A stretch of DNA of 64,000 nt from Sulfurimonas aquatica (GTDB taxonomy: Bacteria > Campylobacterota > Campylobacteria > Campylobacterales > Sulfurimonadaceae), in contig NZ_CP046072.1 in assembly GCF_017357825.1 (NCBI RefSeq), positions 806,001-870,000 of the forward strand, in the 5' to 3' direction. Positions 36,982-64,000 of this stretch are shown here, piece by piece. The translations under genes and the position numbers were made by a program. Positions within the stretch are counted from its first letter, which is position 1. Every line of letters starts with the position of its first letter. A model generated the notes under the pieces. The model was given only the letters and a program-made list of their open reading frames with translations, had not been told where the DNA came from and did no database searches.

Positions 36982-37185
36982 ATGGATAATGGAATAATAA
37001 TAATGATGTTAATTGGTTCTTTAATCTTGGGAGGAATAGCACTCTTTGCATTTCTTTGGGCTGTTAAAAATGGCCAGTTTGATGATGAAGAGAGATTTTT
37101 AAATGCTGTTAAGTTTGATAGTGAAGAGGATTTAAATGATGCTGTTCAAAGAGAAAAAAAGTTAAAAGAGTTGAAGAAAAAGTAG
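36982..37185 (+). CDS. ccoS: cbb3-type oxidase assembly protein CcoS
   Basis: Small 67-residue protein with one N-terminal membrane helix (about residues 4-27) followed by WAVKNGQFDDEERFLNAVKF, the CcoS signature, and a charged Lys-rich tail. CcoS is required for cofactor insertion into cbb3 oxidase. It follows ccoI by four bases. The oxidase structural genes ccoNOQP are not in this window. Confidence 0.93.
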   Translation: MDNGIIIMMLIGSLILGGIALFAFLWAVKNGQFDDEERFLNAVKFDSEEDLNDAVQREKKLKELKKK

Positions 37186-60053: not shown

Positions 60054-60542
60054 TTATCTATGATGTCTATGTTTTTTCTTTGCTGAATGCACTGAAGATT
60101 TCCAAAAATGATTTACCGCCCAGTAAGCTGATAATGACCCGATAACAGAGTAAAAGAGCGTTCCTACATAGAGTGGTATAAAAATATTGTCTATATTCTC
60201 ACTAAACCAGTTAAGAGTCATCTCAACAGGAGCTATCTCAGAACCTAGAAAAAAAGCACCCGTCATATACTCCATATAGTACATTGGTGGCATTGTAAGG
60301 GGATTACTAAGCCAACACATAGCTAACGCGATGGGTACGTTAAAACGTACAAAGGGCATGAAAAGTAGTACGGCCGCCATCTGCATTGGCATAGGTATAA
60401 ACGCTATAAATATACCTATAAGAACGCCACGAGATATCATTCTTCTATTAGTAGCTAAAAACTCTGGTGGTATTTTCGACTTTTTTATAAAGGCTTTTAA
60501 TTTTTCACTTTTTGAAGTCTGTTTAAGTGTCTTTCTTATCAT
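60054..60542 (-). CDS. DUF2062 membrane protein
   Basis: A 162-residue protein with two or three membrane segments. GVLIGIFIAFIPMPMQMAAV near residue 39 and CWLSNPLTMPPMYYMEYMTG near 76 are the DUF2062 signature (conserved Asn-Pro-x-Thr). Function is unknown; members often sit near glycosyltransferase or envelope genes. The C terminus is rich in Lys and His (AKKKHRHHR). Its start overlaps the end of the PAS-GGDEF-EAL gene by 20 bases. Confidence 0.82.
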   Translation of the reverse strand: MIRKTLKQTSKSEKLKAFIKKSKIPPEFLATNRRMISRGVLIGIFIAFIPMPMQMAAVLLFMPFVRFNVPIALAMCWLSNPLTMPPMYYMEYMTGAFFLGSEIAPVEMTLNWFSENIDNIFIPLYVGTLFYSVIGSLSAYWAVNHFWKSSVHSAKKKHRHHR

Positions 60543-62649
60543 TACTTTTACCTAAAATAGCTTGAGGCTTATCAAAGTAGTATCCTTGAGATTTGTTCAC
60601 GCCTAGAGTAATGAGTTTATCATTAATCTCTTTATTCTCTACATACTCGCCTATTGTTTCTATGCCCATCTCTTTGGCAAACGCTACTATTACTGAGGTA
60701 ATAAGAGCAGAGCGTTTGTCATGGGCAATCTCTTTTATAATACTACCATCAATTTTTATGAAATCAGCTTGAAGACGCATTAGATGTTCAAAGTTTGAGT
60801 ACCCTGTACCAAAATCATCAATGGATATTCTACATCCATAAGATTTTACCTTGTTTATAAACTCTTCAATTTTGTCAAAGTTCTCTATACTTTCACTCTC
60901 TACAATTTCAAATATAACTCTATTTGATATATTATATTTTTCTAAAGTTTTAATAATAAAGGCTGTTATATCTTTATCTAAAATATCATCTATTGTAATA
61001 TTTATAGAAAATTCATAGTCTGTCTCTTTAAATACTTCAAAACTTTTTTTAATTACAATTTTTGTTAGTTGTTTATAAAGTTTTGCTTTTTTTGCAATTT
61101 CTAAAAAATGAAAAGGTATGATAGGGTTGCCATCCTTGTCAATGAGTCGTATAAGTGTTTCATATTTGTTAATTTTGTTATTTGCATTGTCAACTATGGG
61201 TTGGAAATAAATGGTGATTCTATCATCATAAATAGCATCTTTAATCTCTTTAATCCATCTTATATTATTCTCATACTCAGTTGAGAGCGATAATTCATCA
61301 CTATAAATAACTAATATTTTTGATCTTCTTTTAGCTGCAATAAGCGCCATGTGCGCCGTTTGTAAAAGAAGTTTATTTTTTTCTAATGATATACCAATCG
61401 TTACATTAAGTGATATTTTTTGATCTCTAATCGTTATAACATTCTCACTATTATGATGAATTAAGTTTGTTGCTATAGCAATGATTGTCTCGGTGTTTCT
61501 CTGTGTACATGTAATTATAAATTCATCACCACTCTGTCTATATAGATTTGCGTTATCTATATGCTCTATTTCAGACAAAAGAAAGTTGGCAAACTCTTTT
61601 AGTACTTCATTACCAAAATCCTCACCGTAGAGATTATTGATTTGACTAAAGCTGTCTATATTAATAAGCATACATGACACTCTTGGAGGATCTTTAATTT
61701 TGTCTAAAAGGGCATTTCTATTTTTTAGTTTTGTTAGACTGTCTACATATAGCATCTCTATAAGCTTGTTTTTTTGTGCTATAAGTTTACTTATATTGTG
61801 CCTGATAGCGATAAACTCTACTATCTCATTATCTTTATTAAGGATAGGCGAAATAGTAGTATCGACCCAGTAACTGCTACCGTCTTTAGCAAGGTTTTCT
61901 ATATGTCCATGCCAGGTTTTTTTTGAAAGTATTGTGTCCCAGAGCTCTACGAAAACAGACTTGTGAGTACTTGGATGGCGTACTATGTTATGGTTTTGTC
62001 CTATAACATCTGCTTGTGTATAGCCCGTTATGTTGTAAAAGTTTTGATTTGCAAAAGTAATAAAGCCATCAAGGTCCGTTCTAGTAACTATAAGGTTGTT
62101 GTCAATGTTTGATTTATAACTCTCAAGATATGAAATATTGTCACTGAGTCGCTGATATGCATTTTTGTCATTTTCATTTATAAAATACTTTATAAGATAG
62201 TATATACCCGACAAGGCAGCAGATATATTTAAAAAGATAAAAACTTCTATAGTACTTTGTGAAACTTTTTGTAGCGGAAGTTGCATCAACCACTGGTCAA
62301 TAAAAACTGAAAAAATAACTAGGGCTATAAAGGAGTAGAGCCAGTATATGGATTTTGATTTTTTTTCATGTATAAGGGATGCTATAGGAGCAAAAAAGGC
62401 CCATAGAAATATATAACCACTCTGCGCAAATCCCCCAAGAGACCACATTAGAAAAAATGGCAAGAGTAAAATTAAGAACATTTGTGTTTTTTGCATTATA
62501 AGAAGGTTTTTATTTTTACTAAAACGCCAAATCGCATAGAGAGATGAAGTTGCATAAGCTAAAGGGATAACTGAAGAGAAATTATGACCTAAAGAGAGGT
62601 AGATAACAAACCACACAAGGCAGACAGGACCAATAATAACAGGAACCAT
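60523..62649 (-). CDS. Membrane PAS-GGDEF-EAL cyclic-di-GMP protein
   Basis: A 708-residue protein with about five to six N-terminal membrane helices (residues 1-160), then PAS with a PAC end (about 180-290), GGDEF (about 300-450) and EAL (about 465-700). The cyclase signature reads RQSGDEFII, with Ser for the first Gly, which may lower but not exclude activity. The EAL motif is ETLIRL, keeping Glu and Leu, and DDFGTGYSNFEHLMRLQADF is canonical, so phosphodiesterase activity is probable. The membrane part has no recognised sensor fold. Stop lies inside the DUF2062 gene. Confidence 0.92.
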   Translation of the reverse strand: MVPVIIGPVCLVWFVIYLSLGHNFSSVIPLAYATSSLYAIWRFSKNKNLLIMQKTQMFLILLLPFFLMWSLGGFAQSGYIFLWAFFAPIASLIHEKKSKSIYWLYSFIALVIFSVFIDQWLMQLPLQKVSQSTIEVFIFLNISAALSGIYYLIKYFINENDKNAYQRLSDNISYLESYKSNIDNNLIVTRTDLDGFITFANQNFYNITGYTQADVIGQNHNIVRHPSTHKSVFVELWDTILSKKTWHGHIENLAKDGSSYWVDTTISPILNKDNEIVEFIAIRHNISKLIAQKNKLIEMLYVDSLTKLKNRNALLDKIKDPPRVSCMLINIDSFSQINNLYGEDFGNEVLKEFANFLLSEIEHIDNANLYRQSGDEFIITCTQRNTETIIAIATNLIHHNSENVITIRDQKISLNVTIGISLEKNKLLLQTAHMALIAAKRRSKILVIYSDELSLSTEYENNIRWIKEIKDAIYDDRITIYFQPIVDNANNKINKYETLIRLIDKDGNPIIPFHFLEIAKKAKLYKQLTKIVIKKSFEVFKETDYEFSINITIDDILDKDITAFIIKTLEKYNISNRVIFEIVESESIENFDKIEEFINKVKSYGCRISIDDFGTGYSNFEHLMRLQADFIKIDGSIIKEIAHDKRSALITSVIVAFAKEMGIETIGEYVENKEINDKLITLGVNKSQGYYFDKPQAILGKSNDKKDT

Positions 62650-62794
62650 TGTAATTGATATTTTTTTTAGTCTAATCTCTTCAGTATCATTGGATTCTAA
62701 GCCACTCTGTAAGGTCTTATCTAAATATTTTTTAATTATTTTAAATATAATTCGTTACCTGTTATGTGATATTTTTTTGATTATATCATAGATA

Positions 62795-62856
62795 TATGAA
62801 TATATTATGAATAAATTATGAATATATTGTGAATAATGTAAAGAGTGTGAATAATA
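62795..62856 (+). repeat. Phased 11-bp repeat array
   Basis: Four tandem 11-bp units, at 62795, 62806, 62817 and 62828, all contain TGAATA at the same place: TATGAATATAT, TATGAATAAAT, TATGAATATAT, TGTGAATAATG. A fifth unit, TGTGAATAATA, follows at 62846 after seven extra bases. Units four and five contain TGTGAATAA, whose complement TTATTCACA differs by one base from the E. coli DnaA box. Spacing equals one helical turn, so a protein would meet all copies on the same DNA face. Confidence 0.9.
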
Positions 62857-62865
62857 TGCTAAAAT
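62857..62865 (+). promoter_or_regulatory. Extended -10 promoter of the DEAD-box gene
   Basis: TGC followed by TAAAAT (62860-62865) forms an extended -10 element 26 bases before the ATG. The predicted start site is near 62872. The repeat array ends at the upstream edge of this element and occupies the place of a -35 region. Confidence 0.5.
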
Positions 62866-62890
62866 TACACATATAAATAGAAGGTAGAGA

Positions 62891-64000
62891 ATGTCATTTG
62901 AAAAACTAGGAGTGTTTAAGCCCCTGCTTGATGCTATAAAAGATTTGGGTTATGAGAATCCAACATCTATACAAACAAAGGCAATACCTTATGTCTTAGC
63001 AAAAAAAGATGTTTTTGCTACAGCACAAACAGGAACAGGAAAAACTGCTGCATTTGCACTTCCTCTGCTTCAGCGTTTACGTAAACGCCAAGAGGGTAAG
63101 GGTGTGAGAGCTGTTATACTCTCTCCAACACGAGAACTCTCTATACAGATATATGAAGATATAGAGAAGTATGCTAAAAATATGGACATCAAAACTATGA
63201 TTTTAGTGGGTGGAAAAGATTTAGACGCACAAAGAAACAAGCTTAAAGCGGGTGTTGAGATTGTTATAGCTACTCCTGGAAGATTGATGGAACATATGGA
63301 AACTGGACTTTCTTTAGTAGATGTGGAGACGTTTATACTTGATGAAGCAGATAGAATGCTTGACATGGGTTTTACTAAAGACATTAGAAAGATTCATCCA
63401 CTTTTACCTAAACGCCACCAAACGCTTCTTTTCTCAGCAACATTTAGTGATAAGGTGAGAAAGCTTTCAAAGTTGATACTGACGAAGCCTATGTTTATAG
63501 AGACTGCAAAGAAAAATACAACAGTAGATACTATAAACCAAGTTGCCTACTTAGTGGATAAAGAGAGAAAAGCGGCACTTTTGGCTTACCTCATAGGTTC
63601 AAGAAACTACCCTCAAGTCTTAGTTTTTACGCGAACTAAAAAGAGTGCTGATGAGTTAGTTATAGAGCTTAAAAAAGATGGACTTAAGTGTGGAATCATT
63701 CATGGAGATAAAACAAAGGCAAATCGTCTTAAAACTCTTACTCAGTTTAAAGAGGGGCACTATAAAGTTTTAGTGGCGACGGACATCGCTTCTCGTGGAC
63801 TAGATATTGAGCATCTTCCTTATGTTATAAACTACGAACTTCCATCTATTCCTGAGGATTACGTACATCGCGTTGGACGTACTGGTCGTGCTGGGCGTAA
63901 TGGTGAAGCAATCTCTCTTATAGATATCTATGAGAAGTATGATATGAGAGACATTGAAAAGCTTATAGGTCAAAAAATACCTCAAGATACGGTTGAAGGT
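62891..64000 (+). CDS. DEAD-box RNA helicase, RhlE-like (partial, runs off the window)
   Basis: ATP-dependent RNA helicase, cut by the window end after 370 codons without a stop. Motifs in order: Q motif (GYENPTSIQTKAIPYVLA) near residue 20, motif I ATAQTGTGKTAAFALPLLQR near 43, PTREL near 79, ATPGR near 124, DEAD near 150, the SAT motif in LLFSATFSDK near 180, and in the second domain VFTRTKKSADEL near 248, VATDIASRGLDIEHLPYVIN near 297 and HRVGRTGRAGRNGE near 327. Only the C-terminal extension is missing. An AGGTAGAG ribosome site precedes the ATG at 62891. Such helicases help ribosome assembly and cold growth. Confidence 0.95.
   Translation, partial: MSFEKLGVFKPLLDAIKDLGYENPTSIQTKAIPYVLAKKDVFATAQTGTGKTAAFALPLLQRLRKRQEGKGVRAVILSPTRELSIQIYEDIEKYAKNMDIKTMILVGGKDLDAQRNKLKAGVEIVIATPGRLMEHMETGLSLVDVETFILDEADRMLDMGFTKDIRKIHPLLPKRHQTLLFSATFSDKVRKLSKLILTKPMFIETAKKNTTVDTINQVAYLVDKERKAALLAYLIGSRNYPQVLVFTRTKKSADELVIELKKDGLKCGIIHGDKTKANRLKTLTQFKEGHYKVLVATDIASRGLDIEHLPYVINYELPSIPEDYVHRVGRTGRAGRNGEAISLIDIYEKYDMRDIEKLIGQKIPQDTVEG

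Follow-up and report, generated by a model that had tools for sequence, protein, structure and literature searches.

The sigma-70 promoters of Campylobacter jejuni combine an extended -10 element with a periodic AT signal that takes the place of a -35 box (PMC3656092, PMC3847290), and mutations in these promoters can alter transcription (PMC3656092). Regularly spaced direct repeats are also known from regulator-binding sites: E. coli ArcA sites mostly contain three to five direct repeats with an 11-bp centre spacing (PMC3798270), and PhoB sites contain two 11-bp repeats (PMC3978041). The DnaA box of Sulfurimonas denitrificans has the in vitro consensus HHATTCACA with the invariant core TTCAC (PMC5043019). 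Here we compared these systems with an array of 11-bp repeats next to an RNA helicase gene of Sulfurimonas aquatica, and we found that the array most likely reflects a local duplication of DNA inside an ordinary promoter and not a dedicated control switch.

The array lies in a window of 64,000 nucleotides (G000:C1:806001-870000), part of a 2.85-Mb genome, between two divergent genes. On the plus strand, an ORF that starts at 62891 and runs past the end of the window at 64000 encodes a DEAD-box RNA helicase (Pfam PF00270/PF00271). Read whole in another stretch (L083), this ORF has 429 aa; we call it RhlE-like, as its best NCBIfam model is RhlE, with a score below the cut-off of the model. On the minus strand, positions 60523-62649 encode a PAS-GGDEF-EAL (cyclic-di-GMP) protein of 708 aa. 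As the initial annotation had stated, an extended -10 element, TATGCTAAAAT (62855-62865, plus strand, with the hexamer TAAAAT at 62860-62865), is present upstream of the helicase ORF, 25 bp ahead of the ATG at 62891, and transcription is predicted from the sequence to start near 62872. This element is conserved in orthologs and has the form of the extended -10 TGNTANAAT found close to the gene start in Campylobacterota sigma-70 promoters. There is no -35 box, TGTAAA being found at the -35 distance, and the predicted promoter thus combines the lack of a -35 consensus with an upstream periodic AT signal. A divergent extended -10, TGATATAAT (62780-62788, minus strand), is predicted to face the PAS-GGDEF-EAL gene, which would give that gene a leader of about 124 nt. 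The gap between these two elements is taken up by the array.

All units of the array are read on the plus strand. Unit 1 (TATGAATATAT, 62795-62805; TRF period 11) is followed by unit 2 (TATGAATAAAT, 62806-62816), which has one mismatch to unit 1, by unit 3 (TATGAATATAT, 62817-62827), which is identical to unit 1, and by unit 4 (TGTGAATAATG, 62828-62838). The TGAATA words of these four contiguous units, at 62797, 62808, 62819 and 62830, are spaced by exactly 11 bp, in agreement with the earlier description. The array had a TRF score of 68 as an 11-bp unit and of 77 as a 22-bp unit, the latter formed by units 1-2 against units 3-4. A further copy, unit 5 (TGTGAATAAT, 62846-62855), had been placed on the same helix face, which proved incorrect: its TGAATA (62848) lies 18 bp past the fourth, about 1.7 turns, and because of this step unit 5 is off the 11-bp phase and does not share the face of the other units. 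The array had also been said to stop at the extended -10. This is true of unit 5, the only unit in contact with the helicase promoter, but the phased run of four units extends only to 62838, about 20 bp ahead of the TG of the -10. No Rfam match to an RNA element was found within 62500-63100, and the spacer had no plasmid relatives.

The repeat is real and, given its composition, far exceeds what chance would give. Searching the genome for other 11-bp TGAATA arrays, a check proposed by the initial annotation, revealed no second site, and TGAATA-N5-TGAATA was not found elsewhere in the whole 2.85-Mb sequence. For repeat statistics we used a 464-kb sample of the genome that included 20 stretches of 20 kb. 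In this sample, no other hexamer recurred at 11 bp to give three copies or more (words made of only one or two different bases were left out of the count), and nothing matched the four 11-bp copies. Dinucleotide shuffling of the spacer never produced a hexamer four times at 11 bp (0/5000). By the generic tandem-repeat score the array stood out less: of 60 trials with shuffled intergenic DNA, 3 reached 68 and none reached 77, and the 464 kb sampled held a few other tandem repeats of similar score outside the crude set of ORFs. The claim that the periodicity exceeds that of ordinary AT-rich DNA is upheld by hexamer counts and shuffles, and less clearly by the generic score. The simplest source of near-identical neighbouring units is duplication.

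Other repeats were seen in the course of these searches. The strongest tandem repeat of the window, at 37076-37146, has two copies of a 36-bp unit and a TRF score of 91, and lies where the crude 90-aa caller found no ORF. Another, at G000:C1:411022-411113 (L117:1022-1113), consists of 4.4 copies of a 21-bp unit (TRF 86); this length is a multiple of three, and the repeat may encode heptads within a gene that the crude caller overlooked. Among IMG/VR viral contigs, 15 stretches (L167-L181) contained TGAATA four times at 11 bp. These viral arrays may represent iterons of replication or have a regulatory role, and they have no link to the helicase locus.

To place the array among its relatives, we used 51 distinct upstream regions of orthologous helicase genes in the genus, this one included. 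The loose extended -10 pattern was present in 47 of the 51, and TATGNTANAAT was found near the start in 42 other ortholog regions. A counterpart of the divergent -10 (ATTATATC/ATTATAGC) occurred upstream of the helicase -10 in 31 of the 50 other regions, and in several relatives the neighbour of the helicase gene is a PAS-GGDEF-EAL homologue with about 52-64% identity. None of the approximately 50 ortholog upstream regions contained the array or more than one TGAATA; it is thus absent from relatives with a normal gene, an outcome that the initial annotation had named as refuting, although the nearest of the orthologs compared (L008) is only about 78% identical in DNA. An anchor, TAAAGAG..GAA.AATATG.TAAAATTACA, is largely common to the array locus and L008, which reads GGGGAAAAAT / GGGGAAAAA at the position of unit 5. 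Between ATTATATC and the end of the helicase -10 there are 86 bp at the array locus, compared with 53 bp in L008, a difference of 33 bp, or 3 x 11. Against other relatives, the difference in spacer length was 32 and about 18-22 bp. The ancestral spacer length is not certain, because this spacing is mostly 54 to 68 bp in other relatives with the divergent EAL gene. Across the genus, the two divergent -10-like elements are 24 to 111 bp apart, the helicase element being nearly constant; because of this variation, the 33-bp step rests mainly on the comparison with L008, at ~78% identity.

We consider it probable that the array is a lineage-specific tandem duplication of an 11-bp AT-rich spacer segment between two divergent extended -10 promoters of the sigma-70 type. 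Unit 3 repeats unit 1 exactly and unit 2 is one base off, as would fit recent copies, and contiguous near-identical copies occur in one lineage and not in its relatives. In the mechanism that we propose, an 11-bp segment was duplicated, probably via replication slippage, and the spacer would thereby have gained about three units, or 33 bp. The origin is probably recent and the effect on expression probably near-neutral. The helicase would be transcribed from the conserved extended -10 (TATGCTAAAAT), with no -35 box. Since the length of every inserted unit approximates one turn of DNA, the insertions would prolong, and not break, the periodic AT signal of Campylobacterota promoters, and transcription is likely to be little changed. 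The array shares with other short tandem duplications (minisatellite-like slippage) its contiguous near-identical copies, its restriction to one lineage and its location in AT-rich noncoding DNA, and differs from them in having a unit whose length coincides with about one helical turn. Against duplication, four good copies at 11 bp were unmatched in 464 kb, and two exact DnaA-box 9-mers within 18 bp, together with an ArcA-like layout, leave room for a protein that may be bound here.

Among the three readings in the initial annotation, a pronounced periodic AT signal fits best. The 42 ortholog promoters have an AT periodicity of ~9.5-10 bp upstream of the -10, and 0/500 position permutations were as strong, a result to be taken with caution as these promoters are related sequences. 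The array promoter had the highest AT power at 9.5-11.5 bp of the 43 orthologs, by a narrow lead (5.39, the next being 5.11), and the best value among 45 extended -10 sites of the same genome was 5.32. Averaging over 30 extended -10 sites of this genome, an underpowered sample, gave no clear AT periodicity. Because the lead is narrow and the orthologs are themselves periodic, we conclude that the array prolongs the ordinary AT signal rather than creating a new one. The locus thus resembles a Campylobacterota sigma-70 promoter in its extended -10, its lack of a -35 and the ~10-bp upstream AT periodicity of its ortholog set, but its period consists of near-identical 11-bp copies of one word, which the orthologs do not have. 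One could suppose that selection has favoured the array as an exaggerated periodic AT element (an UP-like or DNA-flexibility signal) that raises promoter strength, as its top rank among the 43 promoters would suggest and as would suit C. jejuni, where periodic AT replaces the -35 and mutations can change transcription (PMC3656092). However, its margin over the orthologs and over the other sites of the genome is small, its AT phase agrees weakly with the ortholog average (r=0.10), and AT periodicity needs no repetition of one TGAATA word, all of which make such selection improbable. The layout also has the form of an operator. Sites for ArcA (3-5 repeats, PMC3798270) and PhoB (two 11-bp repeats, PMC3978041) typically hold direct repeats whose centres lie about 11 bp apart, upstream of a -10, and the array is therefore compatible with a winged-helix response regulator; this genome has 20 Trans_reg_C domains. 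A cooperative regulator of the OmpR/PhoB/ArcA type might then bind the repeats and activate or repress both divergent promoters. By contrast with those operators, the array has a different repeat word and is found at one site only, with no regulon detected and a cognate regulator that is putative. At up to 2 mismatches, the two-unit motif had 36 matches in the genome, compared with 45 for the reversed control, so there was no enrichment, and there was no second phased pair. No comparable array was found upstream of any of the 20 Trans_reg_C (OmpR-type) genes: the best upstream match ranked only among the top 4% of all upstream regions and fell far short of the array, and the Trans_reg_C gene about 7 kb downstream (C1:875830) had no matching array upstream. 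We rejected an autoregulated response regulator on this count (0/20), and a regulon operator on the genome and genus searches, including the lack of enrichment over the reversed pattern in this genome; the operator for a cooperative regulator that had been proposed initially thus gained no support from the regulon search. As orthologous promoters have nothing similar and a sole, young target is unlikely in itself, we regard control by such a regulator as a poor prospect. Exact matches to the two-unit motif are rare in the genus, and several of the few others fall in one histidine-kinase gene and one upstream of dnaA. TGTGAATATTTTGTGAATA (L145:1501-1519, L137, L141, L143) was tried as a conserved operator in relatives and rejected, as the loci that we read lie inside conserved histidine-kinase coding sequence (peptide YSQNIHKIS in L145 and L137).

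The possibility that DnaA occupies the array is half borne out by the sequence. We confirmed that TGTGAATAA differs from the E. coli DnaA box at a single base, and found that units 4 and 5 both read TTATTCACA on the minus strand (the complements of 62828-62836 and 62846-62854), an exact match to HHATTCACA (PMC5043019). The same 9-mer forms a box at the dnaA gene of this genome (C1:3-11), and two of just 26 exact copies of TGTGAATAA in the genome are in the array. In 151 genomes of the family, the only other place with TGAATA three times at 11 bp was upstream of dnaA in another genome (G121), where the site is a DnaA-box cluster; phased boxes thus occur in the genus. That region (L005:240-690, G121:C92), from a sister Sulfurimonas, contains roughly a dozen HHATTCACA boxes, of which three are spaced by 11-12 bp, and has more boxes and tighter phasing than the dnaA region of S. 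aquatica. DnaA might accordingly bind units 4 and 5, with units 1-3 as weak sites, and couple transcription of the helicase gene, the GGDEF-EAL gene or both to the replication state. However, the core TTCAC of the consensus is present in 2/5 units and missing from 3/5: units 1-3 read TTCAT, which breaks the invariant core. The array is not at oriC and is not conserved, as a DnaA box occurs in the helicase promoter of 1/42 orthologs, which is the chance level, and the nearest relative has GGGGAAAAA at the position of unit 5. Same-strand TGTGAAT pairs within 40 bp were no more frequent than in the reversed control (1 versus 2). A DnaA titration cluster was rejected, as the boxes are too few and not conserved. 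Of the DnaA cluster proposed initially, the two exact Sulfurimonas-type boxes stand, without conservation or independent support. To judge by these matches, DnaA binding at the array is possible, without support as a regulatory design, and we think it unlikely that DnaA couples these genes to replication.

We therefore retain tandem duplication as the preferred explanation, and its significance is small as it stands. It is doubtful that a newborn array bound by DnaA or a response regulator, generated by tandem duplication, jointly controls the RNA helicase and the cyclic-di-GMP gene in one Sulfurimonas lineage; if true, this would be an operator caught arising through slippage. The locus shows that DnaA-box-like words can arise in promoter spacers without being conserved. 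As a tandem duplication, the array would be a clear natural case of a promoter spacer lengthened by whole helical turns, and it may serve to probe the extent to which additional phased units are tolerated or exploited by the periodic AT signal of Campylobacterota promoters.
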